From Deltaproteobacteria bacterium (lineage in GTDB: Bacteria > Myxococcota_A > Polyangia > Polyangiales > Houyiibacteriaceae): a stretch of 42,599 nucleotides of DNA. How positions within the stretch are numbered: position 1 is the stretch's first letter; every line of letters begins with the position of its first letter. The stretch is taken from the NCBI GenBank assembly GCA_013151775.1, contig JAADHO010000051.1:1-42599 (forward strand). Reading direction: 5' to 3'. Position numbers and translations under genes: made by a program. Below, piece after piece: positions 18,700 to 41,354 of this stretch. The notes below the pieces were generated by a model. The model was given only the letters and a program-made list of their open reading frames with translations. It was not told the origin of the DNA and did no database searches.

Positions 18700-19692
18700 T
18701 CAGGACTCCACCGCCGTGTTGGCCTCGTCCTGAAGAAACAGCGCCTCGAGATCTTCTCGTCGCGTGTGGACCGTCTGCACCTGCGCGCCCGCGGCGAGCG
18801 CCTGGGTCAAGAACGCGCTGACCGCCTCGGCGTCGGCGAGCTCGACGGAGAGGCTGTCGCCGGCGCCGCTCGCGTCAGGATGTTCGCGTTCGAGAGCCTC
18901 ACGCAGCTCGGGAGACACGCCCGCGAGCACGACCTCCACCCGCTGCTCCGTGGGTCGCAGGAGCTCGTCGATCGTGCCGGCGTGGGTCACGCGGCCGTCC
19001 CTCAGCAGCACGACACGATCGCAGATGCGCTCCACGTCGCTGAGAATGTGACTGGTGAAGATCAACGTCTTGCCGCGCTTGCGCTCCTCGAGCAGCAGCT
19101 CGCGCACCTGCTTGCGGCCGATGGGATCGAGCCCGCTCATGGGCTCGTCGAGGATCAGGAGCTCGGGATCGTGCAGCAGCGCCTGCGCCAGGCCGATGCG
19201 CTGCGTCATGCCTTTGCTGAATTTTCCGATACGCCTCTCGGTGGCGTGACCGAGGCCCACGCGCTCGACCAACTCCATGGAGCGCTTGCGCCGCTCCGCC
19301 CGGTCCATGCCGTTGAGACGCCCGCAGAGGTCGAGGAATTCTAGAGGTCGCAGGTAGCTGTAGACGTAGGGGTTCTCGGGCAGGTAGCCGAGCCGCGCCA
19401 TCACCTTCCGATCCCCGGGGCGACCACCGAAGACCCGCGCCTCGCCCGCGCTCGGGAAGATCAACGCGAGCAGCATCTTCAGCGTGGTGGTCTTGCCTGC
19501 GCCGTTCGGTCCGAGCAGCCCAAAGACCTCCCCGCGCCTCACCTCGAAGTCCACGCCGCGCACCGCCTCGACGTGCTTCCTGAAGAAGCCCAAGTGAAAG
19601 GTCTTCTTCAGCCCTCTGACCTCGACCACAGGTGCCCCGTGGACTTCATGATCAACGCTCATGTCACTACTGTGTACTTCGACATCGCTCAT
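18700..19692 (-). CDS. ABC transporter ATP-binding protein
   Basis: A 330-residue ABC ATPase of the two-component exporter type (CcmA/NatA-like). Walker A is G-P-N-G-A-G-K-T-T at 61-69, the signature is K-F-S-K-G-M-T-Q-R-I, and Walker B L-L-I-L-D-E-P-M-S-G-L-D is followed by the switch His in F-T-S-H-I-L-S-D-V. A C-terminal 80-residue tail looks like the regulatory extension of the DrrA/NatA group. No permease gene adjoins it, so its membrane partner must be elsewhere. Its ATG overlaps the aminotransferase stop (ATGA), so the two are made together. The first 20 residues are non-conserved; a later start is possible. Confidence 0.94.
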   Translation of the reverse strand: MSDVEVHSSDMSVDHEVHGAPVVEVRGLKKTFHLGFFRKHVEAVRGVDFEVRRGEVFGLLGPNGAGKTTTLKMLLALIFPSAGEARVFGGRPGDRKVMARLGYLPENPYVYSYLRPLEFLDLCGRLNGMDRAERRKRSMELVERVGLGHATERRIGKFSKGMTQRIGLAQALLHDPELLILDEPMSGLDPIGRKQVRELLLEERKRGKTLIFTSHILSDVERICDRVVLLRDGRVTHAGTIDELLRPTEQRVEVVLAGVSPELREALEREHPDASGAGDSLSVELADAEAVSAFLTQALAAGAQVQTVHTRREDLEALFLQDEANTAVES

Positions 19693-20771
19693 GATTGTGT
19701 GAGTGCCTGTTTCAACGCCTCGACCACCTGATCTACCTCCTGAGCGCTCATGCCCTCGAAGAGCGGCAAGGCGAGCCCTCGGTCAGCGAGGGCGTCCGCC
19801 ACGGGCGTCTCCGCCGGACAGAGGAGATGTGGCAGGCGCGCGAGGGAGTAGGACAAGATCCCGGCGCCCACACCCAGGTCGCGCATCCGCTGCATGACCT
19901 CGGGTCGTGGTGGAGCGGAGTCGGGCAACCACACGGCCATTGTCTGGCGATTCGACCTCACGCCTCGGGGCGATCGCTGAACCCGCAGATCGAGCGCGAG
20001 CGCTTCCAGCGCAGCCACATAGCGTTCGGCGAGCTTCGCGCGCTGATCGAGCATGGCGTCGAGGCGCGCGAGCTGACACAGGCCGATGGCGGCCGCGATC
20101 TCCGTCATTCGGTGGTTGCCCGCCGCCTCCAGAAACTCGCCCGGCGCAGACTGCCCGTGATTCCGCAGCGCACGCAGACGCGCCGCCAGCTCCGCGTCGT
20201 CCGTGAGGCAGGCGCCGCCTTCACCCGTTGTCAGCAGCTTGCGCGGATGAAAGCTGAGCGTGCTGAGCACACCGAAGCTACCGCAGGGAGCGTCCTCGAA
20301 GTGACTGCCCAGAGCGCAGGCGGCGTCCTCGACCACGGGCAAGTCGCCCACGACGTCGTCCAGCTCCGCGCGCCTTACGGGGTTGCCGAACTGATCGATC
20401 ACGAGGGCCAACTTCGTACGTGAGCTGCGCGCCTCCGCGTACGCCTCGGGGGCGCCGTTCCAGTCCTCGGGATCCACATCCACCAGCACGGGTGTGGCGC
20501 CTAGCAGGCGGATGGCGTGCGCCGGGCTCGGCCAGCTGAGCGCAGGACACAGCACTTCATCTCCGGCGCCGACCCCCAGAGCCTGCAGCCCGAGCAGGAG
20601 CGCGGAGGTGCCGCTGCTGACCGCCACGGCGAACTCTCTGCCCGCGCGTAGGGCCAGCTCGCACTCGAAGGCCGAGACGCGCTGACCCTGCACCAACATG
20701 CCGCTCTCGAGCACCTCCTGGACAGCGCGGGCTTCGGTCTTGCCGAGCTGAGGTCGAGCGAGGGGGATCAC
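19689..20771 (-). CDS. DegT/DnrJ/EryC1/StrS family aminotransferase
   Basis: A 360-residue PLP-dependent sugar aminotransferase-type protein. Schiff-base Lys178 lies in S-F-H-P-R-K-L-L-T-T-G-E-G-G, and Asp149 in V-V-E-D-A-A-C-A-L-G would contact the PLP nitrogen. S-S-G-T-S-A-L matches the phosphate-binding loop. The family usually transaminates nucleotide-linked keto-sugars for O-antigen, capsule or antibiotic sugars. No other sugar genes are close, only the ABC ATPase coupled by ATGA. Together they may serve export of a surface glycan made elsewhere. The start is GTG 20771, giving the classic V-I-P-L-A-R-P-Q-L-G N-terminus. Confidence 0.95.
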   Translation of the reverse strand: MIPLARPQLGKTEARAVQEVLESGMLVQGQRVSAFECELALRAGREFAVAVSSGTSALLLGLQALGVGAGDEVLCPALSWPSPAHAIRLLGATPVLVDVDPEDWNGAPEAYAEARSSRTKLALVIDQFGNPVRRAELDDVVGDLPVVEDAACALGSHFEDAPCGSFGVLSTLSFHPRKLLTTGEGGACLTDDAELAARLRALRNHGQSAPGEFLEAAGNHRMTEIAAAIGLCQLARLDAMLDQRAKLAERYVAALEALALDLRVQRSPRGVRSNRQTMAVWLPDSAPPRPEVMQRMRDLGVGAGILSYSLARLPHLLCPAETPVADALADRGLALPLFEGMSAQEVDQVVEALKQALTQS

Positions 20772-28792: not shown

Positions 28793-30127
28793 ATGACCGG
28801 CGAACGCGACGACTCCATCAGCAAGCTCTCTCCCCTCGACGTCGCGCACCAACGCCGCCTCGAGGGCGACGCCGCGGGCGCGTTGAGACACGCGCTGCCG
28901 ATGCTCGAGTCGGACATGGCGCAGGTCGGCGCGGCGGCGCTGATCTGCCGTGTGCTGATCGACGCGGATCGCTCCTTCGTCGCAGGCGAGGTGGCCAAGC
29001 GCTTGGTGGACGCCTTCTGTCGACGTGGGGACCTGCCGGCCGCGGTGGTCGCCGCGTCCATGGCCGAGAGCGCCGGCGAAGACGCCGCTGCCCTGCATCA
29101 GAGCATCGCCGAGGTCTTCGGCGCGGACTCGAAGCGCATCGGGGACGTACCTCCGGCGCCGCCTCCGCTGCCTGCAGCCGACGCGAAGGTGCTGCCCGCG
29201 ACGCTGAAGCTCGAGGCCCTGCTCGATCGCGCGGAGACCAGCCTCGAAAAATACCTGGCGTCGGACGACGCGACGGCGAAGGATTCACCCGTGCCTCGCT
29301 TGCCGCTCTTCGCCAAGCTCGCTCCGGAGGCCTTGGCGGTGTTGCTCGCTGCCTTCGAGGTGATCGAGCGCGCCGAAGACGACACGGTGATCGACCAAGG
29401 TGAGGAGGGACGGGAGGCCTTCGTGGTGGCGCGCGGCGCTCTGCGCGTCGTGCGTGACGTCGGGCAAGAGTCGGAGCTGCTGCTCGCGGCCCTCGGCCCC
29501 GGCGCCATCTTCGGTGAGATGGCCCTCGTCAGCGACGCCCTGCGCGCCGCTTCGGTGATCGCGGTGGAGCCGGTGATCCTGCTCGCCGCAGGACGCGACG
29601 CCCTGGAGTCCTTGGCCGCGCGCGAGGAGGTCGTGGGCGCCGAGCTCGGCGCCTTCTGTCAGGGGCGCATGGTCTCGAACCTCATCCGCCACAGCGCCAT
29701 CTTGGGCAGCGTTCCGCCCGACGAACGGCGCGAGTTGGTGCAGCGCTTCCAGACGCGCACCTTCGCTCCCGGCGAGAAGTTGATCGAGCGTGACCACGAC
29801 GTCGACGGCCTGTATCTCGTCGCGAGCGGCTGCGTCGAGGTCGTGGGTGAGGACGAAGACGGAGACAGCATCCGCATCGCCGCTCTGGGGCCCGGCGACG
29901 TCGTGGGCGAGATCTCCCTGCTCTTGCGTCGGGAGGCCACCGCGGACGTGGTCGCCAAGCACCCCACTGTCGCGCTGTGGCTCGAGAAGGACGCCTTCCG
30001 TGAGGTCATCCGCGAGCATCCCGCCCTGCTCGGCGAACTCTACGAAACCGCGACCCGACGCGAAGAGGAGACCCGCAGCGTGGTCGCCCAAGAGGCCCTC
30101 GAACTCGGCGACATCATCCTCCTGTGA
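28793..30127 (+). CDS. Protein with two cyclic-nucleotide-binding domains
   Basis: A 444-residue cytosolic protein. Residues about 1-110 are helical and TPR-like, followed by a Pro/Ala linker. Two Crp-type cyclic-nucleotide-binding beta-barrels follow: the first at about 165-280 with G-P-G-A-I-F-G-E-M-A-L, and the second at about 305-425 with G-P-G-D-V-V-G-E-I-S-L-L. Both keep the phosphate-binding G-E-x-x/L helix start. The usual following Arg (R-x-A) appears as L-R-A-A-S-V in the first and R-R-E-A-T-A in the second. There is no DNA-binding domain, so it is an effector or scaffold, not a Crp regulator. The class III cyclase at 8389-9996 could supply its ligand. It ends about 40 bases before the RiPP-type genes. 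Confidence 0.9.
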   Translation: MTGERDDSISKLSPLDVAHQRRLEGDAAGALRHALPMLESDMAQVGAAALICRVLIDADRSFVAGEVAKRLVDAFCRRGDLPAAVVAASMAESAGEDAAALHQSIAEVFGADSKRIGDVPPAPPPLPAADAKVLPATLKLEALLDRAETSLEKYLASDDATAKDSPVPRLPLFAKLAPEALAVLLAAFEVIERAEDDTVIDQGEEGREAFVVARGALRVVRDVGQESELLLAALGPGAIFGEMALVSDALRAASVIAVEPVILLAAGRDALESLAAREEVVGAELGAFCQGRMVSNLIRHSAILGSVPPDERRELVQRFQTRTFAPGEKLIERDHDVDGLYLVASGCVEVVGEDEDGDSIRIAALGPGDVVGEISLLLRREATADVVAKHPTVALWLEKDAFREVIREHPALLGELYETATRREEETRSVVAQEALELGDIILL

Positions 30128-30167: not shown

Positions 30168-31049
30168 ATGATGATGCCTCTAGCCCAGCCCTGCACCGAA
30201 ATCGGGAAGACCACGCGACTGAGCTTCGGAGGCGTCGAGGTGGAGTTGCTCGCGGACACCGCGCTGAGCCTGCCCGACACACACCTCGCTTGCGTCCCCT
30301 CGGGCTCCACGCCAACGGGGACTCCACGTGTGGTGTGCAGCGTGAACACCGACGCCTCGCTCCTTGGAGAGCGCCGCGAGACGCGTGCGATCACGCTCTC
30401 TGACGATGGTGATTGCCTGAAGACCCCGGGTGGGCGTCTGCGGCTCTCGAAGACCGGCGCTCGATGCTGGGTGGCGAGCGGTCGCGTCGCGCCTTCGGAG
30501 ACGGCGCTGGGAGCTCTGCTCGAAGGCCTCACCGCGGCCGTGCTCGAGCTGTCCGGCGGTCTGGTGATGCACGCGGCCGGTGTCGAACTAGACGGCAAGG
30601 CCTACCTCTTCGTGGGACCATCGGGTGCGGGCAAGACCACAGCGGCGGGTCAGGTCTTTGGCGGGCGCAGCTTCACCGTGGACCGCGTGGCGCTGTGCAT
30701 CTCGGCCCATGGCGCAGAGGCGTGGGCATTGCCAGGTGGCACGAAGCCAGACGAAATCGCTCCGCCAAGCGCACATGCTCGACTGCCCCTCGGAGGTGTG
30801 CTCCGGGTAGTGCAGGCGTCCAGAGTGCTCGCCCTCGAGCTAGCATCACATCAGGCGCTGTTGGTCTTGCGCGAGTCCATCTTGACGACGAACTCGAGTC
30901 AGGGCGCCGAGGAGCGGCGCCTCGACGCGATCCAACACTTCCTCTCTCCGGCGCCGATCGTTCGACTCGAGTTCGGCCTTGGTGCGCCTCTGGCGCACAG
31001 CTTGCGGTCGCTCGAAAGCCGCGCGACGAGACCTCGGGAGACTCCGTGA
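30168..31049 (+). CDS. HprK-related kinase of a RiPP locus
   Basis: A protein of about 293 residues with an HPr kinase-like P-loop domain in its second half: H-A-A-G-V, then Y-L-F-V-G-P-S-G-A-G-K-T-T (P-loop at about 150-158), then F-T-V-D-R-V-A-L, matching the Asp-containing strand of HprK-type enzymes. The N-terminal half is unassigned. Relatives without the HprK sensor domain occur in peptide-modification clusters, and lasso-peptide kinases of this fold phosphorylate a C-terminal serine. No HPr or PTS gene is seen here. The stop overlaps the PqqD-like start (GTGA). Several starts are possible: GTG 30165 and ATGs 30168, 30171 and 30174; 30168 is a compromise, and no strong Shine-Dalgarno sequence separates them. 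Confidence 0.88.
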   Translation: MMMPLAQPCTEIGKTTRLSFGGVEVELLADTALSLPDTHLACVPSGSTPTGTPRVVCSVNTDASLLGERRETRAITLSDDGDCLKTPGGRLRLSKTGARCWVASGRVAPSETALGALLEGLTAAVLELSGGLVMHAAGVELDGKAYLFVGPSGAGKTTAAGQVFGGRSFTVDRVALCISAHGAEAWALPGGTKPDEIAPPSAHARLPLGGVLRVVQASRVLALELASHQALLVLRESILTTNSSQGAEERRLDAIQHFLSPAPIVRLEFGLGAPLAHSLRSLESRATRPRETP

Positions 31050-31333
31050 AACCGCCCCTTCGCGTCCGGCAGTCGGAACGTCTTGCGGCTCGAACTATCG
31101 ATGGAAAGGGCGTGGTGATCGTGCTGGATCGCCAGATCGTGCACACGTTGAACGCTGTCGGGATGCGGGTGTTCGACCTCGCGGATGGACGTAGCACGGA
31201 CGAGATCGCTCAGGCTCTGATCGGGGAGTTCGACGTATCCCAAGAACAGGCCCATGCGGACGTGGATATATTTGTGCAAGAGTTGCTCGGACTCGGTGCT
31301 CTCGAAGAAGTAGAGCAGGGAGATCCCGCGTGA
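31046..31333 (+). CDS. PqqD-like RiPP recognition protein
   Basis: A 95-residue protein of the PqqD family, a small winged-helix recognition element that binds the leader of a precursor peptide and presents it to a radical SAM enzyme. Typical features are the N-terminal strands (V-V-I-V-L-D-R-Q-I-V-H-T-L-N) and G-M-R-V-F-D-L-A-D-G-R-S-T. The helical end is I-A-Q-A-L-I-G-E-F-D-V. It overlaps the HprK-like stop (GTGA) and the radical SAM start (GTGA), so the three proteins are made in a coupled way. GTG 31046 is the only start consistent with the overlap and the family length. Confidence 0.93.
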   Translation: MKPPLRVRQSERLAARTIDGKGVVIVLDRQIVHTLNAVGMRVFDLADGRSTDEIAQALIGEFDVSQEQAHADVDIFVQELLGLGALEEVEQGDPA

Positions 31334-32667
31334 GCACGACCAACTTTCTACTAAGCCAGGGCGCCGCCTCTGCCGTGGCAGCGCTGCGTACGGACGTCCA
31401 TAGCCCTTACACCGCGATGATCGAGGTGGCGGATCGCTGCAACGAGGTTTGCGTTCATTGCTATCAGGTGCAGGGACAGAAGGGAGAGATGACCACCGAG
31501 GAGGTCTGCTCCGTCATGGATCAACTCGCCGAGCTAGGCGTAATCTTCCTGACTCTGTCGGGCGGCGAAGCTACCCTACGCTCCGATTTTCTCGAACTCG
31601 TCGCGCACGCGCGCAAGCTCCGTTTCGCCGTGAAGCTCTACACCAACGGCTTGCGGATCGACGATGCCATGGCCGATCGTCTGGCCGAGCTCGCGGTGCA
31701 GGAAGTGCAGATGAGCCTCTACTCTCCTCGCCCGGAAGTGCACGACTGGGTCACGCGCGTGCCGGGGTCCCATCAGCGCACCGTCGCCGCGGTGCGCAGG
31801 CTCGTCGCACGAAAGGTACGAGTCGTCGTGAAAACGCCCGTGATGCGCTTCAACGCTCACGATCGTGACCGTTTCATCGACCTCGTGGAAGATATCGGTG
31901 CCCATTATATGCTCAGCACACACGTCGATCCGCGGGAGGACGGTGTGCGTGACCCAGAGATGTTGAGCATCGACCATGGAACGAACCTCGACATCCGTCG
32001 GGACTCCCGCGTCTTCGGCGAGACGGAAGAGGAGCCGGAGCCGCGAGCGCCCAAACTCGACCGAGCGCCCTGCGGAGCGTGCAGCGGCATGGTGCACGTA
32101 GAACCCAACGGTGAAGTTCATCCGTGCACCCAACTGAACCTCCGAATTGGCGGCGCCCTCGATGAGGGCGGCATCGCCAAGGCGTGGCAAGAGAATGCCG
32201 AGGCTCGGCTGCTACGCCACACGACCTACGCGGACCTGCACGGCTGCCGCGACTGCGCGCTTCATCCCTACTGTGCGCGATGCTACGCCAACGCTCTGAC
32301 TCAGGCCGGGGACGCCTTCGGGCCCTATGCGAGCGCCTGTGCAGACGCTCGCTTGGAGTACGAACTCGCTCACGGAGAGCCAGCACAGATCATCGACCAG
32401 CCGGACGCGATGGGTCCCTACGCCGCCGTGGCAGGAAACGCATTTCGGACAATCGAGGACCGGCTGACGGAAGAGGACCGAGCGAGGTACGCCAAACACG
32501 CCTGGCTACGACAGCCCGTCAAGGCGGAACCGCTCGCGCCTGCAGGCGGGCTGGTTCAAATTCGCCGGCCGGGAGCGCGAATGCCCGAGCCGTTGCAGTG
32601 GCCCGGTGCCTCGCCGACGTCCCACGAGGACGAATCCGGCAAGGCCAACCCCACGGCGGCAGAATGA
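31330..32667 (+). CDS. Radical SAM/SPASM peptide maturase
   Basis: A 445-residue radical SAM enzyme. The SAM-binding [4Fe-4S] motif is C37-N-E-V-C41-V-H-C44, followed by the G-G-E motif in L-S-G-G-E-A. The C-terminal SPASM domain has cysteines at 248, 251, 266, 306, 309, 315, 318 and 337, enough for two auxiliary clusters. SPASM enzymes with a PqqD partner install thioether, carbon-carbon or ether crosslinks, or epimerise, in ribosomal peptides. The last 60 residues are Pro-rich and unlike the family. The likely substrate is the 58-residue peptide at 36867. Start GTG 31330 overlaps the PqqD stop. Its own stop overlaps an ATG (32664) in frame with the next gene. Confidence 0.96.
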   Translation: MSTTNFLLSQGAASAVAALRTDVHSPYTAMIEVADRCNEVCVHCYQVQGQKGEMTTEEVCSVMDQLAELGVIFLTLSGGEATLRSDFLELVAHARKLRFAVKLYTNGLRIDDAMADRLAELAVQEVQMSLYSPRPEVHDWVTRVPGSHQRTVAAVRRLVARKVRVVVKTPVMRFNAHDRDRFIDLVEDIGAHYMLSTHVDPREDGVRDPEMLSIDHGTNLDIRRDSRVFGETEEEPEPRAPKLDRAPCGACSGMVHVEPNGEVHPCTQLNLRIGGALDEGGIAKAWQENAEARLLRHTTYADLHGCRDCALHPYCARCYANALTQAGDAFGPYASACADARLEYELAHGEPAQIIDQPDAMGPYAAVAGNAFRTIEDRLTEEDRARYAKHAWLRQPVKAEPLAPAGGLVQIRRPGARMPEPLQWPGASPTSHEDESGKANPTAAE

Positions 32668-32804
32668 CGCTATGCTTCTGCGGCCGGACGGCCGAAAGAC
32701 ATGCTGCCATGACGCCGACCGGGCGATGCTGTTACAGTTCTTACCTCGGGCCGAGAGCCCGGGAGGGGTGGTCGAAGAAGATGAACCAGAGCGAGGATTC
32801 CAAG

Positions 32805-35800
32805 ATGCGTGCTTTCTTTTCCGTTGAGCCTAGGGCGACGTCGGTGGTCGGTCTCATGCTGCTGGCCGCTGGGCTGCTCTCCGGATGTGGGGGAGGATCG
32901 AACGCGGCCACCCTGGTGATCGTGACCCCGCTGAACAACACGAACATCTCCTTGGCCGACGACGTGGACCCGGCGACCGCCGGCGTACAGATCGACGTGC
33001 TGGTGGATTCGACCCGCCTGACCGTCGACGACGGCGACATCACTATCTACATCGAGCCGAGTATCGACCGCTCGACCTTCGACTCGTCGAGCCTCACACC
33101 GGCGGGCAGCGCCACCCTCGCGGAGGATGGCACGGCCACCATTCGGGTGACGCTCGCCGACGGTGACTACGACATGATCGCCTGCGCTCGAGGGTTGTTG
33201 TGCGCTGTGCGCTCGCAGGTCGTGCGCATCACCGCGAGCACGGGCTGCGCCGCCATCTCCTTCACGCTGCCTGCAGGCCCGATCGCCGGCCGCACGGTCC
33301 TCGGACCGGAGGATGACGAAGACGGCACGGCCTGCGGCGAGACCTTCCAGACCACCATCAGCGTCTCCACCGACGCGGGCGACGGCGCGAGCGTCGCCTT
33401 GAGCGTCAACGGCGTCGCGGCGGGCACGACCAGCGTGGCCGGCACGGTGGCGACCTTCCCGGCGATCGTTTTGGGCAACCGCGGCGACACACCCAACACG
33501 CTCTCCGTGACTGTCACGCGGGCCGACGGAGTGAGCTGCGATCAGGACTTCCCCGGTCAGGTGATGGTCGACTGCATGGGCGTGAGCTGCACGCTGACTC
33601 AGCCGGACACGACGCGCGCCTTCCTCAACGCCTCCGACGACGTCTCGGCCATGGACGGATTCCAGGCTGACTTCGAGGTCAACAGCGACGCGGACGCCTT
33701 GGGTCAGCCCATTCAGCTGGTGATCGATGGCGACGAAGGCGGCGCCCTGAGTTCCGATCCCACCGCAGGCGGTGGCGGCGCCACGGCCAGCTTCGGTCCA
33801 GTCGACCTCACCGAGGGCCTGCATCGCGCCCAGGCGATCTGCTCGGACCGGGCCGGCAACGTGACGCGCTCGAGCGTGGGTGAGTGGACCATCGACACCA
33901 CGCCCTGCGGTGTCAGCGTCACAGACCCCGCAGCCGACATGCTCTTCGTCGACGCCGACGACGTGGACTCTTCCACGGACGGCATCCAGATCAACGTGAC
34001 GGGCACCAGCACGGGCAGCGACTGCAGCTTGGCCCGGGTGGGTATCTGCGAATCGACCTTGGCGGACGCGACCCTCACGGCGGACGCCTTCAGCGGTGTG
34101 GCGACCTTGGCCAGCTCGACCATGCAGGAGATCTGCGCCGAGGTGGAGGACGCGGCCGGCAACATCGCCGAGGCGCGCGTCGCGGTGCGAGTGCGCACGG
34201 ACGCACCGCAGATCGAGATCACGACGCCCACGGCGCCAGCGGCCTTCAACTCCGCGGGGGACGCGACCCACGGCGCAGACATGGACACGGCGACGCCCGC
34301 CTGCGACGCGGCCTTCAGCGTGAGATGCACCGAGGTCGACTCCGCGGTCGAACTCGTCCGCGAGGACACGATGGTGGTGCTCGGCACCGCGAACTGCGAC
34401 GCGACGGGTGGTCTGCCCGCGCCCTTCCTCGGCCAGGCGAACTTCGCCAGCGTCGCCCTCTCGAGCGTGAACGCGGCTGCCGGCAGCTACAACGTCATCG
34501 CACGCCAGACGGCGGATCGTCTGACGGGCACCTCCGCGCCGCTCTCGGTCGTCCCCGACTGCGACGTGCCGACGTTCACGCTCCTTCGTCCCTCGGCTTG
34601 TCTCGTGGGCGGAGCGGCCGTTCTTCGACCCGCAGGAGGCGATGACTCGGACCCCAGCACACCCGGATTCCAGTACACAGTCACCGTCGGCAACTCCAAC
34701 GCACCCCCACCCGACGTCGACCTTCGTGTGGATGGTAGCGTGGTGGCCACCAGCACGACCCGTTCGGGCGGCTCCAACGTCTTCACGAATCAGGATTTCA
34801 CGACGGGCGGCACGCTCGCTGTGGACGCCTGCGGCACGGACGTGAACGGCAACACGGGCTGCGCTCCGGCGTGCTCCGTGACGATCGTGGATCTGCCCAC
34901 GGTGAACATCACGGCGCCGACCGAAGGAGCGATCCTCGACGCCAGCGCCGACTGCGATAGCGGCACGGCGGGCTTCCAGGTGCGGGTGCAGGGAACCACC
35001 GACGCCTCGGCAGGGGCCGGTACGAGCGCCACGGTCACCATCAACGGCGGCGCGCCGGTGACCATCTCGCTTACGGGTTCGAGCTTCAACGCCTGTGTCG
35101 ACGCTCCTCAGGGTGCTGGTTTGCCGATCGTGGTCGAGGTCACGGACTCGCGCGGCAGCGCATCGGACACCGTGAACGTCACCATCGACAGCATGCCGCC
35201 CACGACCGCCATCTCGGATCTCGCGGTCGGTGCGGCCACGGATCGCCGCGGCGGCACGCTGCCCTTCACCTGGACGGCCGTTGCAGACGGCGGCACGGGC
35301 GGCGCGCTCTCGAGCTACGAGATGCGCTGCGCCAAGACGGCCATCACGAGCGAAGCCGACTGGACCGCCGCCACGACCTTCGCCATCAGCACGACGCCGG
35401 GTAGCCCGACGAGCGTGGAGATGGAGACCGTCGGCGGGTTCCGCGTGGGTGAGACCATGTACTGCACCATGCGCGGCAGCGACGTCACGGGCGCCATGAC
35501 GCCCATCGGCAACGACCCCACCGTGACCCTCGACTTCCTCGAGCAGTCGGTGACGGGCTCCACCTCGGATATGGGCTGGAGCTTCGCCGCGGTGGGTGAT
35601 GTGAACGGTGACACGGTGGACGACTTCATCGTGGGTGGAGTGACGACGGCCTACCTCTTCTTCGGCTCCACGACCAGCCTTCCCACGGCGCCCGCGGTGA
35701 CCTTCACCGGGTTCACGACCAACGGCACGATCGGCGTGATCACCGCTGGCTTGGGCGACTTCAACGGAGACGACATCAACGATTTCGCGTTCTCTTCAGG

Positions 35801-36836
35801 GGGCGAGAGCTTCCCCGCTGGAGCCGCGTACATCGTCTATGGTCACGATTCCACCACGCCGTGGCCAGGGGCAGTCAGTATGGCTGCCGGCGGCTGCGGG
35901 GCTGATGTTTGCTTGCGAGGCACGGCGCCGTCCGGTCTGTCGGATGTGCAAGGTCTCGCGGCGATCGGTGATTTTAATGGAGATGGGTTGGCCGACATCG
36001 CGGTAGGTACCACCTTCGAAGGCTTCAGCGGGGGGATAGCGCCGGGCGCCGCATACGTCGTCCTCGGAAGCGCTTCGCTCAGCGGAAACGTGACCGTGCC
36101 GGGTGGAGCCGGCACCCTGGACGGCTTCAAGATCACGTCGCCGACTGGGTCCGACTTTTTCGGCAACGCGATCACATCGATGGGAGATGTCGATGGGGAC
36201 GGACGCGCCGACATCGTCGTCGCCGATGTCGGGCAGCCGACTGGGCACGTCTACATCGCCCGCGGCAGGGCTTACACCGGGACCGGGATGATCGACGTGT
36301 CCAGCACGCTGATCGATTCGGGTCCCGCGATTTTTGCCAATCGAGTGATGAACATCGGTGACTACGACGGCAACGGACAGGTTGATTTGGCCATCTTCGA
36401 AAAACTGACTATCAACCGCGGGCGTGTGCGCATCTATCCCGGCAGCGCTGGCGCATATTCCGCCGCCACTAGTTTTGTCGTTACCAACGACACGTCCTCG
36501 CCCAACAGCGACGGTTACGGTCGTTTCCTTGCTCAGGGCGGTCATCCTGTCTTCGGTCTGGTAGGTGATCTGGACGGAGACGGACGCGCTGACGCGCTGA
36601 TCGGATCAGAACAGCGCGGTGGTGGTCGTGGATCGGTCGAACTGTACTACGGTCAGGCTGCTGGAGATCGAAACCGATCGCAGGCGGACCATTCATTCCG
36701 TCCCGTGGCCAGCACCGGCAGCACAGCGCGAACGAGCAGCTACATTGGTGACGTGGACGGCGACGGCTTCTCCGATTTCGCCATCGGCGACCCCACCGGG
36801 CAATCCGGGGCTGGCGAATTCTGGATTGAGCACTAG
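32805..36836 (+). CDS. Large Ig-like/FG-GAP repeat lipoprotein
   Basis: A 1343-residue exported lipoprotein. The signal peptide ends in A-A-G-L-L-S-G-C. About six Ig-like repeats follow, each opening with I/V-x-x-P and a D-D-x-D-x-x-T-x-G-x-Q block (for example D-D-V-D-S-S-T-D-G-I-Q-I-N-V). A fibronectin-like segment (about 800-910) comes next. Seven FG-GAP repeats follow (G-D-V-N-G-D, G-D-F-N-G-D twice, G-D-V-D-G-D-G-R, G-D-Y-D-G-N, G-D-L-D-G-D, G-D-V-D-G-D-G-F), forming a predicted seven-bladed, calcium-binding, integrin-alpha-like propeller. It lies between the maturase and the precursor, so it may be the peptide's surface partner. ATG 32805 fits the signal peptide; ATG 32781 and the coupled ATG 32664 are alternatives but would put polar residues first. 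Confidence 0.9.
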   Translation: MRAFFSVEPRATSVVGLMLLAAGLLSGCGGGSNAATLVIVTPLNNTNISLADDVDPATAGVQIDVLVDSTRLTVDDGDITIYIEPSIDRSTFDSSSLTPAGSATLAEDGTATIRVTLADGDYDMIACARGLLCAVRSQVVRITASTGCAAISFTLPAGPIAGRTVLGPEDDEDGTACGETFQTTISVSTDAGDGASVALSVNGVAAGTTSVAGTVATFPAIVLGNRGDTPNTLSVTVTRADGVSCDQDFPGQVMVDCMGVSCTLTQPDTTRAFLNASDDVSAMDGFQADFEVNSDADALGQPIQLVIDGDEGGALSSDPTAGGGGATASFGPVDLTEGLHRAQAICSDRAGNVTRSSVGEWTIDTTPCGVSVTDPAADMLFVDADDVDSSTDGIQINVTGTSTGSDCSLARVGICESTLADATLTADAFSGVATLASSTMQEICAEVEDAAGNIAEARVAVRVRTDAPQIEITTPTAPAAFNSAGDATHGADMDTATPACDAAFSVRCTEVDSAVELVREDTMVVLGTANCDATGGLPAPFLGQANFASVALSSVNAAAGSYNVIARQTADRLTGTSAPLSVVPDCDVPTFTLLRPSACLVGGAAVLRPAGGDDSDPSTPGFQYTVTVGNSNAPPPDVDLRVDGSVVATSTTRSGGSNVFTNQDFTTGGTLAVDACGTDVNGNTGCAPACSVTIVDLPTVNITAPTEGAILDASADCDSGTAGFQVRVQGTTDASAGAGTSATVTINGGAPVTISLTGSSFNACVDAPQGAGLPIVVEVTDSRGSASDTVNVTIDSMPPTTAISDLAVGAATDRRGGTLPFTWTAVADGGTGGALSSYEMRCAKTAITSEADWTAATTFAISTTPGSPTSVEMETVGGFRVGETMYCTMRGSDVTGAMTPIGNDPTVTLDFLEQSVTGSTSDMGWSFAAVGDVNGDTVDDFIVGGVTTAYLFFGSTTSLPTAPAVTFTGFTTNGTIGVITAGLGDFNGDDINDFAFSSGGESFPAGAAYIVYGHDSTTPWPGAVSMAAGGCGADVCLRGTAPSGLSDVQGLAAIGDFNGDGLADIAVGTTFEGFSGGIAPGAAYVVLGSASLSGNVTVPGGAGTLDGFKITSPTGSDFFGNAITSMGDVDGDGRADIVVADVGQPTGHVYIARGRAYTGTGMIDVSSTLIDSGPAIFANRVMNIGDYDGNGQVDLAIFEKLTINRGRVRIYPGSAGAYSAATSFVVTNDTSSPNSDGYGRFLAQGGHPVFGLVGDLDGDGRADALIGSEQRGGGRGSVELYYGQAAGDRNRSQADHSFRPVASTGSTARTSSYIGDVDGDGFSDFAIGDPTGQSGAGEFWIEH

Positions 36837-36849
36837 AGTCTCCCTATGC

Positions 36850-36858
36850 GGAGGAGAG
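36850..36858 (+). promoter_or_regulatory. Strong Shine-Dalgarno sequence of the precursor peptide
   Basis: GGAGGAGAG lies eight bases before ATG 36867. It excludes the ATG at 36846, which lies in front of it, as the real start. It is the strongest ribosome-binding site noticed in the RiPP locus, as expected for a peptide needed in large amounts. Confidence 0.65.
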
Positions 36859-36866
36859 CAGGCGAT

Positions 36867-37043
36867 ATGTCTTCAAGAATCGACGACACGAAACAACCCA
36901 TCGAGAATCCCGGTCGCAAGCGATACGAGGCGCCTCGCGTCGAGGACTCGGCGCGCTTCGAAACCTTGGCAGCGGGCTGCGGAAGCATTCTGTCCGGTCC
37001 AGCCGACGGTGGAGCCTGTGGTTTCAGTTCGCAGTTCAGCTGA
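36867..37043 (+). CDS. Candidate RiPP precursor peptide (58 residues)
   Basis: A 58-residue peptide with a leader/core look. Residues 1-19 are polar and charged. Residues 20-35 form Y-E-A-P-R-V-E-D-S-A-R-F-E-T-L-A, resembling the Y-x-x-P-x-(hydrophobic)...E-T-x-A motif of small peptides next to PqqD/radical SAM genes. The core (36-58) is Gly/Ser-rich with Cys38 and Cys51 and ends in F-S-S-Q-F-S. Two cysteines would suit thioether crosslinks, and the terminal Ser58 would suit the HprK-like kinase. It lies 30 bases after the FG-GAP lipoprotein gene and 4.2 kb after the maturase, and is followed by a stem-loop. The role is inferred from context and motif. Confidence 0.75.
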   Translation: MSSRIDDTKQPIENPGRKRYEAPRVEDSARFETLAAGCGSILSGPADGGACGFSSQFS

Positions 37044-37082: not shown

Positions 37083-37111
37083 CGCGCCAGTCTCAGCTCG
37101 AGGCTGGCGCG
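37083..37111 (+). terminator. Stem-loop after the precursor gene
   Basis: CGCGCCAG pairs perfectly with CTGGCGCG across a 13-base interval that can add a T-G wobble and CTC/GAG pairs, giving about a 12-bp stem with a five-base loop. It begins 40 bases after the precursor stop. No run of T follows, so it may work with Rho or protect the mRNA end rather than terminate alone. Confidence 0.5.
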
Positions 37112-37207: not shown

Positions 37208-38200
37208 GTGTCCGAAGCGGCCATCGAGCATCCGCGCGCGGAGCTGTCCAGCGCGTCCATGACGGAGTCGGCGACGCGAGTCGCGCACGTCTTGGTGGCG
37301 AACGTGGAGCGCGTGCTCGAGGGCAAGCGCGACGTGGTGGAGCTGGCGGTCACGGCCATCCTCGCCAGCGGGCATCTGCTGGTCGAGGACGTGCCCGGAG
37401 TGGGCAAGACGACTCTCGCGCGTGCGCTGGCCGCTTCACTCGGTGTGACCTTTCGACGGTTGCAGTTCACGTCTGACCTGATGCCCTCCGACGTGATCGG
37501 CGGCAACGTCTACGATCCCAACACCGGCAGCTTCTCCTTCCGGCCCGGCCCGGTGTTCACGAACGTGCTGTTGGCGGACGAGATCAACCGCACCACGCCC
37601 AAGACTCAGAGCGCGCTGCTCGAGGCCATGGACGAAGGACAGGTCTCCGTCGAGGGTGAGACGCACGTCCTCGACGATCCCTTCTTCGTCGTGGCGACCC
37701 AGAACCCCGAGGATTTCTACGGCACCTATCCGCTGCCCGAGTCGCAGCTCGACCGCTTTCTTCTGCGCATCCACATCGGCTATCCGCCGGCGGACGTCGA
37801 GCGGCGTATCCTGCGCGAGCGCCGAGGACGCGATCCCCTCGACTCCATCAGCAGCTGCGTGTCGGTGGAGCAGCTGCGTCAGGCGCGCGCCGCGTTGAAT
37901 CACGTGCGCGTGGAAGACGTGCTGCTCGACTACATGCACGCGCTCGTGCTCGCGACCCGATCCACGCCCGCTCTGACTCTGGGCGCCTCCACACGCGCGG
38001 CCCTGGCCCTCGAGCGTGCGGTGCGCGCGCGTGCCTTGGTCGCCGGTCGACGCTTCGCCATCCCGGAAGACGTCGAGCAGCTCGCCGGATGCGTGCTGGC
38101 CCACCGCGTGCGAGTCGAGAGCCCGGACCCGCGCACGGCCACCGAAGACGCCGAGCGCGTCATCCGCGCGCTGCTCGAAGAGGTCGACGTCCCCGTATGA
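37208..38200 (+). CDS. MoxR family AAA ATPase
   Basis: A 330-residue MoxR-type AAA+ ATPase, a chaperone that remodels or activates metal- or membrane-associated partners. Walker A is D-V-P-G-V-G-K-T-T, Walker B is V-L-L-A-D-E-I-N-R-T, and sensor 1 is F-F-V-V-A-T-Q-N-P-E. The family hallmarks Y-P-L-P-E-S-Q-L-D-R-F and F-R-P-G-P-V-F-T-N are present. An N-terminal tail of about 20 residues is variable. It is first in the MoxR-DUF58-transglutaminase operon found across bacteria. The stop overlaps the DUF58 start (ATGA). Start GTG 37208. Confidence 0.96.
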   Translation: MSEAAIEHPRAELSSASMTESATRVAHVLVANVERVLEGKRDVVELAVTAILASGHLLVEDVPGVGKTTLARALAASLGVTFRRLQFTSDLMPSDVIGGNVYDPNTGSFSFRPGPVFTNVLLADEINRTTPKTQSALLEAMDEGQVSVEGETHVLDDPFFVVATQNPEDFYGTYPLPESQLDRFLLRIHIGYPPADVERRILRERRGRDPLDSISSCVSVEQLRQARAALNHVRVEDVLLDYMHALVLATRSTPALTLGASTRAALALERAVRARALVAGRRFAIPEDVEQLAGCVLAHRVRVESPDPRTATEDAERVIRALLEEVDVPV

Positions 38201-39240
38201 GCGCCGGGCGCCGCCGCAGGCGTTTTTGGCAGCGCAGACGCACCCGGCGCAGCTTTCGCCTCACACGCGAGGGCAAGGCCTTCGTCCTGGTCACCCTCGG
38301 TGTGGGCGTCGCCGCGGTGAACACCGGCAACAACCTGCTCTACCTGGTGCTCGGCCTGATGCTCAGCCTGTTGCTCGTCAGCGGTGTGCTCAGCGATCTT
38401 GCGCTGATCGGTCTGCACGCGCGACGCATCTTGCCTCGACGCATCTTCGCCCAGACGCTCTGTCGCGTGGAGGTCGTGCTCCGCAACAAGAAGCGCTTCT
38501 TCCCGAGCTTCTCGCTCGAAGTGGAGGACGTCGTCGATGGAGAGGACACGCCCACGCGCTCCTACTTCTTGAAGGTCCCGCCGCGCGGAGAAGATCGGGT
38601 CTTCTACCCGCACCTAGCAGCACGTCGTGGGCGCCGGCGCTTCACTCACCTGCGCCTCGTGACTCGCTATCCCTTCGGTCTGATCGAGAAAGGCCGCGTG
38701 ATCCCGGCGGAGGAAGAGGTGATCGTCTTCCCGCACATCGAGCCTCGCTCTCCCCCACGGCCCACGCGCCAAGCCAAGATGGGTGAAGACGCCACGTGCG
38801 TCCGCGGACCGGGTAGCGAGCTGGCGGGGCTTCGCGACTACGCGCCCGAGGACGAGGCACGCGACATCCATTGGCGCCGGACCGCCTCCCTCGGCAGCGT
38901 CGTGGTGCGCGAACGTGAGCGGGAACGGGGCGTGGAGCATTGGCTGGTTCTGGACGAGGCGACCGCAGAGCCCGACGATCCAGCTTTCGTCGAGGCCTTC
39001 GAGCTCGCCGTCTCCGAGCTGGCCAGCCTCGCCACCGCCAGCCTCGCCGCTGGATACGCCGTGCGCGTGGCGAGCCGCACGCTCACCTCACGTCGCTTCA
39101 CACCGGAGCGCTCGCCCGATGCGCTCTACCGCCTGCTGGCGCTGCTCGAGCCCAGGGCCCTCGAGGGCGCCCCGGCCTTGGTGGCACCCCACGACGCCAG
39201 AGTCGTGCGTGTGGCCGCGCAGATCGAGGCGGCCGAGTGA
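38197..39240 (+). CDS. DUF58 membrane protein (VWA-like)
   Basis: A 347-residue protein of the DUF58 family. A very basic N-terminus (R-R-R-R-R-F-W-Q-R-R-R) precedes two close membrane segments (about residues 27-65: F-V-L-V-T-L-G-V-G-V and L-V-L-G-L-M-L-S-L-L-L). A C-terminal cytoplasmic domain carries the family motif G-L-R-D-Y-A-P-E-D-E-A-R-D-I-H-W-R. Members work with the MoxR ATPase, presumably presenting a von Willebrand-like surface. Role details are unknown. It overlaps its neighbours on both sides (ATGA and GTGA). Confidence 0.95.
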   Translation: MSAGRRRRRFWQRRRTRRSFRLTREGKAFVLVTLGVGVAAVNTGNNLLYLVLGLMLSLLLVSGVLSDLALIGLHARRILPRRIFAQTLCRVEVVLRNKKRFFPSFSLEVEDVVDGEDTPTRSYFLKVPPRGEDRVFYPHLAARRGRRRFTHLRLVTRYPFGLIEKGRVIPAEEEVIVFPHIEPRSPPRPTRQAKMGEDATCVRGPGSELAGLRDYAPEDEARDIHWRRTASLGSVVVRERERERGVEHWLVLDEATAEPDDPAFVEAFELAVSELASLATASLAAGYAVRVASRTLTSRRFTPERSPDALYRLLALLEPRALEGAPALVAPHDARVVRVAAQIEAAE

Positions 39241-41354
39241 AGTTCTCGAGCCTGCACTTCGGCGTAACGTATCTCCTGGCGGGCCTGGGCTTCGTGGCCT
39301 TGAGTCTGGGCTCGGCCATGGGCCCGATCCAGCGCCTGGCCATGTTCCTGGCCTTCGTCGCGACGGCCTTCGTCACGCCTCGCCTGATGCGCGACGCGCG
39401 CTGGTCTCAGGCCTGGACCGTGATCGTCCTGGCCGGCCTAGGTGTACAGATCATGCGAGGGATCTCGGGCGAGCCCATCTTGCATCTGGGCATCGAGTAC
39501 GCGGCCCTGCTCCAGCTCTCGCGCCTCGCCTATCGCCCGACGGCGCGCGAGTACCAGCAGATCGCCATCATCAGCTTCCTGCACCTGATCTCCGCCACCG
39601 TGCTCTCCTCGGGCCTCGGCTACGGGCTGGTCTTCCTGGGCTTCGTGATCGTGCTGCCGTGGATGCTCGCGCTCACTCACCTGCGCGCCGAGATCGAGCG
39701 CCACTACGGGGACTCCACCACGGGGCCGAGCGTCGCGCGCGTGCTCGCCTCGAAGCGCGTGGCGGGGCCCGCCTTCTTGCTGGGCACCGCCTCACTGACG
39801 CTGCCGCTCTTCGCCATCACTGCGATATTTTTCCTGGCCTTTCCGCGGGTCGGCATGGGCTTCCTCAGCTTCGGCCATGGCCCGGGACGACAGGTGGCCG
39901 GTTTCGGTCGCAACGTGCAGCTCGGTGGTTTCGGCGCCATCCGAGACGACCCGACGGTGGTCTTGCGCGTGAAGGTGCCCGGGCTCCCGAGTCCTCCGCC
40001 CGAGCGCCTCGGCCTGCGCATGCGCGGGACCTCCTTCGACCACTACGAGGACGGCGAGTGGACGCGTTCCCACGGCACGACGGCGACCATTCGCGAACGC
40101 CACGGCTTCTTCCCGCTCTCCCGCTTGCCCCAGAGCGCCACCGAGCGGCGACTTCAGATCATTCTCGACCCCTTGGACGAGCCCGTGATCTTCCTGCCTG
40201 AAGGCACGATCGGGATCAGCACGCCTCCGCGCGTGCTCGCGGGCCTGTCCGTCATGCGCGACATCGTGCGCTCCGATGGCATGGACGTGCGCTACACGGA
40301 CGCTGACGGATTGGAGTTCACCTACACCGCGCATGTCTCCACGCGCGCGCCCTCCGCGCCGACGGATCCGATCGACAGCGAAGCCTTCGCCCGCTACCTG
40401 GAGCTGCCCAGAGGACAAGAGCGCATCGTCGCCTTGGCGCGGCGCTGGACCGCCGGCGCGGCTTCACCGGGAGCTCGAGCCGACCTGTTGCTGAGACATC
40501 TGCGCGACAGCGGTGACTTCCGCTACACGCTCGAGCAGCCCGACACCCACGGCGACGATCCTCTCGAGGTCTTCCTGTTCGAGGCTCGCGCCGGGCATTG
40601 CGAGTATTACTCGACCGCGCTCGCCGTGATGTTGCGCGGGCTCGGCGTGCCAGCGCGCAACGTCACGGGGTTCTTGGGCGGTCGCTACAATCGTTTTGGC
40701 GGCTACTACGCGGTGCGCCAAGGCGACGCCCATTCGTGGGTCGAGGCCTGGATCGACGAAGGCTGGGTCACCCTCGACGCGACCCCTGCGACCCGCGAGC
40801 TGCTCGGGCCGCGCGACGGCATGCTCGGCGGTCTGCGCGCGCTACTCGACGCCATGAGCATGCGCTGGGCGCGTCACGTGGTGGGCTACGATCTACGTCG
40901 GCAGGCCGCGACGCTGCGCGAGCTCATGGGCTACTTTGAGCGCTGGCGTCGCCCGGGAGGATCGACAGCCGAGCACGAGGAGATCAGCCCAGCCGCTGGA
41001 ACGCAGCGCCGCAGCCAGAGGCCGAGTCTCGCTTGGTTGCTGCTCGCGCTGCCGCTCCTGCTCGCGTGGTGGTGGCGAAGGCGCTCATCGCCTCCAGTCT
41101 CTCCAGACGACGCCCGCCTTCGACGAACTCTGCGCCTCTACCGCAGGCTGGACGCCCGCCTCGCCCGCCGAGGCCTCTCGCGTCCACGCAGCCGCGCGCC
41201 CACGCGTCACCTGCGGGCCCTGCGTGAAGCCGACTTCGAGGGGCTCGAGACCGCCGAGGAGATCACCGCGCTCTACCTCTCCGTGCGCTACGGCGGAGCC
41301 TCGGCCGAGAGTCAGGATCTACGGCGCCTGGAGCGAAGCGTGCGTGATCTGTGA
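39237..41354 (+). CDS. TgpA-like membrane transglutaminase (DUF3488)
   Basis: A 705-residue membrane protein. About six to seven membrane segments fill residues 1-210 (DUF3488). A periplasmic transglutaminase-like domain follows (about 400-530), with Cys in R-A-G-H-C-E-Y-Y-S-T-A, His in D-A-H-S-W-V-E-A-W, and Asp in T-L-D-A-T-P. A further membrane segment near residue 600 (L-L-L-A-L-P-L-L-L-A-W-W-W) leads to a C-terminal DUF4129-like helix region. The triad is complete, so it is probably an active peptidase or transglutaminase acting on the envelope. GTG 39237 overlaps the DUF58 stop by four bases. Confidence 0.95.
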   Translation: MKFSSLHFGVTYLLAGLGFVALSLGSAMGPIQRLAMFLAFVATAFVTPRLMRDARWSQAWTVIVLAGLGVQIMRGISGEPILHLGIEYAALLQLSRLAYRPTAREYQQIAIISFLHLISATVLSSGLGYGLVFLGFVIVLPWMLALTHLRAEIERHYGDSTTGPSVARVLASKRVAGPAFLLGTASLTLPLFAITAIFFLAFPRVGMGFLSFGHGPGRQVAGFGRNVQLGGFGAIRDDPTVVLRVKVPGLPSPPPERLGLRMRGTSFDHYEDGEWTRSHGTTATIRERHGFFPLSRLPQSATERRLQIILDPLDEPVIFLPEGTIGISTPPRVLAGLSVMRDIVRSDGMDVRYTDADGLEFTYTAHVSTRAPSAPTDPIDSEAFARYLELPRGQERIVALARRWTAGAASPGARADLLLRHLRDSGDFRYTLEQPDTHGDDPLEVFLFEARAGHCEYYSTALAVMLRGLGVPARNVTGFLGGRYNRFGGYYAVRQGDAHSWVEAWIDEGWVTLDATPATRELLGPRDGMLGGLRALLDAMSMRWARHVVGYDLRRQAATLRELMGYFERWRRPGGSTAEHEEISPAAGTQRRSQRPSLAWLLLALPLLLAWWWRRRSSPPVSPDDARLRRTLRLYRRLDARLARRGLSRPRSRAPTRHLRALREADFEGLETAEEITALYLSVRYGGASAESQDLRRLERSVRDL

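Follow-up and report, generated by a model that had tools for sequence, protein, structure and literature searches.

The window analysed here, i.e., the whole stretch of DNA under study, is one contig of 42.6 kb (JAADHO010000051.1) of a metagenome-assembled genome of 6.05 Mb (G000), whose close sequence relatives carry the names Sandaracinaceae, Polyangia or Myxococcales. It very probably carries a locus for a ribosomally synthesized and post-translationally modified peptide (RiPP), with genes for an HprK-like kinase, a PqqD-family RiPP recognition element (RRE), a radical SAM/SPASM enzyme, a giant FG-GAP lipoprotein, and a short precursor peptide. The best overall explanation, which we consider likely, is that these genes encode a pathway in which the peptide would be bound by its leader, modified, phosphorylated, released from the leader, and would then work with the lipoprotein. 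RiPP pathways with peptide kinases are known, as are pathways with SPASM radical SAM enzymes, but we did not find a conserved pathway described that unites both with a giant surface lipoprotein. The features of the locus are the following.

30168..31049, + strand: HprK-like peptide kinase, with P-loop GPSGAGKT, a His in MHAAG, and a single Asp in TVDR
31046..31333, + strand: PqqD-family RRE, with a GTG start in a GTGA overlap with the kinase stop
31330..32667, + strand: radical SAM/SPASM maturase, with CxxxCxxC at residues 37/41/44 and seven SPASM cysteines
32781..36836, + strand: giant FG-GAP lipoprotein of 1351 aa, with a lipobox, an Ig-like region, and an FG-GAP beta-propeller resembling integrin alpha
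36850-36856: likely ribosome-binding site of the precursor, GGAGGAG
36867..37043, + strand: precursor peptide of 58 aa, with leader YEAPRVEDSARFET, Cys38 and Cys51, and a C-terminal Ser
about 37083..37111, + strand: 12-bp hairpin downstream of the precursor (z -2.7 for a 117-nt stretch)

An initial annotation of this DNA had proposed five open reading frames (ORFs): the kinase, PqqD, and radical SAM genes joined by GTGA overlaps, then the lipoprotein and a 58-residue peptide on the same strand. All five are indeed on the + strand, at coordinates that were correct within a few bases, and the two overlaps lie at 31046-31049 (kinase/PqqD) and 31330-31333 (PqqD/radical SAM). The stem-loop that was said to close the locus exists as a hairpin, but we looked for a T run of the terminator type there and found none. 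Searches with Pfam profiles recognized PqqD (PF05402, E 5e-14), Radical_SAM (4e-23), SPASM (4e-5), and FG-GAP (7e-22) in the proteins of the window. The CxxxCxxC motif and the seven SPASM cysteines are invariant in 25 members of the radical SAM family.

The precursor peptide is conserved. Of the related loci, 19 have a contig that extends past the lipoprotein gene, and in each of them an ORF of 50-68 aa with the same leader follows. In an alignment of 18 precursors, Y20, P23, C38, and C51 are invariant, in agreement with the earlier description of a leader-like motif and two core cysteines. When the comparison is extended to 57 precursors, the leader carries Y/W-xx-P, the spacing from the Tyr/Trp to the first Cys is exactly 18 residues in 55 of them, and F/L-E is kept at Tyr+11/+12. 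There are exactly two cysteines in 52 of the 54 distinct cores, and 47 of these 54 end in Ser or Thr, compared with 14% Ser+Thr in the core interior (binomial 1.6e-32, a value that ignores shared ancestry). The precursor profile matches the window's own genome exactly once (E 1e-16, the next match being at 0.035). Taken by itself, the pattern YxxP-x14-C in the vicinity of a stop has about 5 non-precursor occurrences in 972 kb and is present at nearly every precursor site. The single-copy match and the rarity of the pattern rule out that the peptide is a chance ORF. Lipidation of its first Cys was considered because of the sequence LALAC and was rejected, as no hydrophobic signal-peptide stretch precedes this residue. 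Since the leader and the spacing of the cysteines are nearly invariant, the precursor is an easy target for genome mining.

The precursor profile matches 39 of the 184 genomes of the order and 43 of the 379 Myxococcota genomes sampled (about one in nine). The cassette is syntenic in about 22 loci of the order. Elsewhere in the phylum, in other classes, the genes are found in an alternative order: PqqD, lipoprotein, peptide, kinase, radical SAM, and S26 peptidase. Among the 26 genomes of the order with a close radical SAM homologue, the peptide is on the same contig in 21; in two it is on another contig, behind a fragment of the lipoprotein, and in two others the contig ends within the lipoprotein. 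Only G079 has no detectable peptide. Hence, the proposal that these five families form a RiPP system is supported by synteny conserved across Myxococcota, and, apart from the two truncated contigs, just this one of the 26 genomes has a close radical SAM homologue but no detectable peptide.

In all 36 loci with a lipoprotein match, the lipoprotein gene ends 54-176 bases before the Tyr codon of the precursor, on the same strand. This adjacency spans the two enzyme gene orders and also the deep clades into which the loci differing in gene order fall when their radical SAM proteins are placed in a maximum-likelihood tree. The lipoprotein of the window has a lipobox, LLAAGLLSGC, which we read directly from the sequence (Cys codon at 32886-32888); an automatic lipobox scan (28/38, with several false matches) was too crude and was not used for counting. 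Pfam identifies an Ig-like match and six FG-GAP stretches. The predicted structure of the 651 C-terminal residues has a mean predicted local distance difference test (pLDDT) of 81.9, and its best matches are integrin alpha headpieces (Foldseek E 2e-9). Because of this predicted integrin-like fold and of the lipobox, we infer that the protein may act in binding at the cell surface.

The lipoprotein is also rich in cysteines and always adjacent to the peptide where it is present, so one may ask if the radical SAM enzyme and the kinase act on it, or on another protein, the small ORF being not a precursor but a regulator or adaptor. We find this very unlikely: the peptide carries YxxP, a motif that RREs of the PqqD type are known to bind (PMC13381572, PMC12710340), its leader is conserved while its core is hypervariable, and it persists in loci that lack the lipoprotein.

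The kinase is only weakly recognized by sequence profiles (ScmC at E 3e-6 and HprK_rel_A at 6e-4, both far below the cut-offs and restricted to the P-loop region), and in a sequence search against solved structures most matches are P-loop ATPases, HprK appearing at E 2e-4. Its predicted structure, obtained from seven orthologues (mean pLDDT 75.7), matches the fold of phosphoenolpyruvate carboxykinase (PEPCK) and HPr kinase, with hits to PEPCK (E about 5e-6) and HprK (E 2e-5) in Foldseek and to PEPCK in VIA-align (Z up to 13.6). Invariant residues are those of the P-loop, the His before it, and one Asp.

These elements are consistent with a pathway in five steps. First, PqqD would bind the leader through Y-x-x-P-x-V/I, as suggested by homology and by the invariance of the motif. 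The SPASM radical SAM enzyme would then modify the core at or near the two invariant cysteines, most likely by a thioether or another Cys-anchored cross-link; we give such a Cys-anchored modification an even chance. Third, the HprK-like kinase would phosphorylate the conserved C-terminal Ser/Thr, which we regard as somewhat probable for the family as a whole. An S26-type peptidase would subsequently cut the leader, most likely between F-E-T and LAAGC; a cut immediately in front of the first Cys is the alternative. In linear polyphosphorylated peptides (LPPs), the leader residues F-3, E-2, and T-1 direct the cleavage (PMC13381572), and by analogy the cut in the peptide of the window would fall behind FET and leave LAAGCGSILSGPADGGACGFSSQFS. 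Finally, the product would work with the integrin-like FG-GAP lipoprotein encoded upstream, most likely as a ligand bound or displayed on the cell surface, a role in display or binding that we propose tentatively.

Several observations weigh against parts of this pathway, and the kinase of the window provides the first. It has TVD where SDD is expected, i.e., the first Asp of the Asp-Asp pair is replaced by Val, while the His, the P-loop, and the second Asp are kept. In known lasso peptide kinases, H, G, K, S, and a pair of neighbouring Asp are required, and D186 of the lasso kinase BsfK is important for both catalysis and solubility (PMC10368454). The first Asp is gone throughout the clade of the window (TVD, AAD, VRD, GHD, SYD, AYD), whereas SDD or SDE is retained in most other clades. 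We thus regard phosphorylation of the C-terminus by the enzyme of the window itself, which lacks one catalytic Asp, as possible but somewhat doubtful. Loci L055-L062 (family f5), L064, and L066 have a second HprK-like gene, the two being placed in tandem or on either side of the radical SAM gene; one copy has SDD and the other an Asn at this position (FASN/FAHN/LGSN), which suggests a pair of active and inactive kinases.

The loss of the Asp raises the question of whether the product is only cross-linked or oxidized by the radical SAM enzyme, the kinase of this clade being a degenerate, non-phosphorylating subunit, e.g., a scaffold that binds the leader. The clade-wide loss, with P-loop and His maintained, and the SDD/Asn pairs of family f5 fit this idea, as does the fact that four of the seven C-termini other than Ser/Thr come from the clade of the window. 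Yet P-loop, His, and second Asp are all retained in the kinase, its gene remains translationally coupled to the next one, and 9 of the 13 precursors paired with a kinase lacking the first Asp still end in Ser/Thr. We therefore find this explanation rather unlikely. The latter frequency is to be compared with roughly 90% elsewhere, which is a weak hint of a tie between the loss of the Asp and the other C-termini, and we do not claim such a tie.

The second point concerns the lipoprotein. The g2 clade keeps kinase, PqqD, radical SAM, and peptide without it. Furthermore, the CX2CX5CX2C part of the SPASM domain is absent from 11 of the 54 radical SAM proteins compared across the phylum, and these eleven form one clade that lacks both the lipoprotein and these four cysteines. 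Because one clade has the cassette without the lipoprotein, we view the latter as a partner outside the enzymatic core. The earlier inclusion of the lipoprotein as a part of the system thus holds for its position directly upstream of the peptide wherever it is matched, but not for all clades. The peptide might even be a secreted signalling or antagonistic molecule, the lipoprotein being just an operon neighbour (e.g., a co-regulated adhesin) and neither target nor carrier. The g2 clade and the several FG-GAP proteins encoded in the genomes of some relatives leave this a real, if lesser, possibility. Against it stand the 36 adjacencies across deep clades and two gene orders, and the results of searching 12 genomes with the lipoprotein profile: six had matches, and the copy of the RiPP locus ranked first in all of them. 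Among genomes of other classes, it was the sole match at E<1e-15 in G231, G315, and G218. No match at this threshold was found in G251, G441, G364, and G410, where the homology of the lipoprotein therefore rests on a broader profile. On balance, peptide and lipoprotein are likely to be functionally coupled where both are present.

The remaining points concern chemistry, maturation and export. The core is hypervariable except for its two Cys and its C-terminal Ser/Thr, and it has no obvious acceptor residue for a thioether. A gene for an S26 peptidase was not detected in the contig of the window, and gene clustering revealed no exporter among the conserved neighbours. In relatives, ORFs resembling S24/S26 peptidases adjoin the precursor or the radical SAM gene at many loci; their Pfam support is weak and their Ser, His, and Asp are invariant. 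The window's own genome has a candidate S26-like ORF on another contig (C296, E 1e-8), from which the peptidase would have to act. In two loci (L044, 14374-15348; L045, 12513-13595), the S26-like domain is at the C-terminus of an apparent methyltransferase, whose gene lies immediately beyond that of the precursor and in the opposite orientation. The initial list of parts, whose five genes stand, had missed this leader peptidase of the relatives, the conserved C-terminal Ser/Thr, and the likeness to LPP and lasso-kinase systems.

Among known systems, a close parallel is given by the LPPs of Bacillota (Nat Commun 2026, PMC13381572), with which the locus shares the HprK-like kinase, the discrete RRE, and, in part, a leader in the YxxP...FE style. 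The SipW-like S26 leader peptidase of LPPs, LppS (catalytic S29, H68, and D93; PMC13381572), is paralleled by the S26-like ORFs of many relatives of this locus, with the same three types of invariant residue, but not by any gene detected in the contig of the window. The leader of LPPs reads YxxPxVLxHQxIxFETxxS, whereas here YxxPxV/I and F/L-E-T/A/R are kept, HQ is absent, and FE is two residues nearer the Tyr. The LPP core gene set, as described, has neither a radical SAM enzyme nor an FG-GAP lipoprotein, while this locus has both, plus two cysteines. Phosphate is carried by core Ser3 in LPPs, and the same register (Tyr+18) is occupied here by the invariant first Cys. LPP clusters also include a nucleoside triphosphate (NTP) transferase and an MsbA-like exporter; here, NTP_transf_5 (PF14907) genes lie near some loci of f5, g2, and others (e.g., L057, 14584-15528; L108, 9850-10767), though not in the window, and there is no conserved exporter. 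These genes resemble the NTP transferases of both paeninodin and LPP clusters. We judge the system to be a kinase-plus-radical-SAM RiPP with two cysteines and a lipoprotein partner, which has some of its parts in common with LPPs.

Phosphorylated lasso peptides (paeninodin type, and BsfA of Bradymonas; PMC10368454) also share the YxxP leader, the PqqD-like B1 protein, and the HprK-like kinase. Kinases of lasso peptides and LPPs phosphorylate precursors with the help of the RRE, and the acceptor in lasso peptides is mostly a C-terminal Ser (PMC10368454). In Bradymonas sediminis, an FG-GAP repeat protein is also encoded next to the lasso cluster bsf, which has a kinase and a YxxP leader; the authors of that study presumed it not to be involved (PMC10368454). 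The shared YxxP leader, PqqD, and kinase, together with the pairing of PqqD and a SPASM radical SAM enzyme in the pathways of pyrroloquinoline quinone (PQQ) and mycofactocin, could point to a lasso-type or redox-cofactor pathway, which we nevertheless find highly improbable. The B2 protease family of lasso systems (PF13471) is absent from the genome of the window, so that a lasso peptide was rejected, and the locus has a radical SAM enzyme and two cysteines instead. No asparagine-synthetase-like cyclase was recognized among the conserved neighbour clusters, no genome-wide search for this family having been made. PQQ and mycofactocin were rejected because the NCBIfam scores are far under the cut-offs (PqqE 98/381, PqqD 23/46, and MftC 122/265 bits), and a hypervariable core is unlike the precursor of a cofactor.

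The SynChlorMet cassette (NCBIfam TIGR04248-TIGR04251: ScmC, ScmD, ScmE, ScmF) has the same types of HprK-like, PqqD-like, and SPASM radical SAM proteins. Compared on enzymes alone, its scores here are far below the curated cut-offs (ScmC 26.8/125, ScmD 23.7/100, ScmE 105.9/400 bits). We rejected it, as well as GeoRSP, whose scores are also far below the cut-offs. Sactipeptides and other SPASM RiPPs (e.g., StsB/StsC) have a SPASM radical SAM enzyme and a PqqD-like RRE acting on a Cys-containing core, and a YxxP-like motif was reported for the StsC group (PMC12710340). Relative to sactipeptides, the locus adds the kinase, the S26 peptidase (in relatives), and the FG-GAP lipoprotein, and its core has just two cysteines. 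The suggestion that the system was unreported is borne out by the open-access literature, in which we found no paper uniting these parts, subscription papers and most preprints being outside the search.

Other genes recur around the cassettes. Directly upstream of the kinase, a cyclic-nucleotide-binding protein with two cNMP domains (28793..30127, + strand) recurs as the upstream neighbour in 13 related loci, and it is possibly the first gene or the regulator of the operon. Downstream, an operon of MoxR ATPase, DUF58-like, and transglutaminase-like genes (37208-41354) is also found behind the cassette in several relatives (L049, L052, and L053), a co-occurrence that probably reflects chromosomal synteny. 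Genes for an ABC ATPase and a DegT-type aminotransferase (18700-20771) recur in the wider surroundings of several cassettes (clusters c5 and c6), including in another family of the class. At 6497-8389, on the - strand, the window encodes a lipoprotein in which the amino-acid sequence DSGPIA is repeated in tandem close to the N-terminus. Further paralogues of the FG-GAP lipoprotein lie beside HprK-like and/or PqqD-like genes in L135, L136, and L138, where this profile detects no precursor; these are perhaps sister systems with another peptide. Finally, in L105, L112, and L157, which lack the FG-GAP lipoprotein, a large secreted protein of one cluster adjoins the cassette, and that of L112 has a gingipain-type Peptidase_C25 domain.

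These results suggest that the locus represents a branch of the chemistry of ribosomal peptides that has not been described, and they pose the question of the role of an HprK-like kinase after the loss of one catalytic aspartate. In its broadest form, the system might be a phylum-wide surface system for recognizing other cells or prey, in which a peptide cross-linked by the radical SAM enzyme and phosphorylated at its C-terminus would serve an integrin-alpha-like FG-GAP lipoprotein as its dedicated ligand or as the head group that it displays, a speculative scenario that we find unlikely as a whole. A direct coupling of lipoprotein and peptide would suggest that the system acts at the cell surface, a location to which few modified peptides have so far been assigned.

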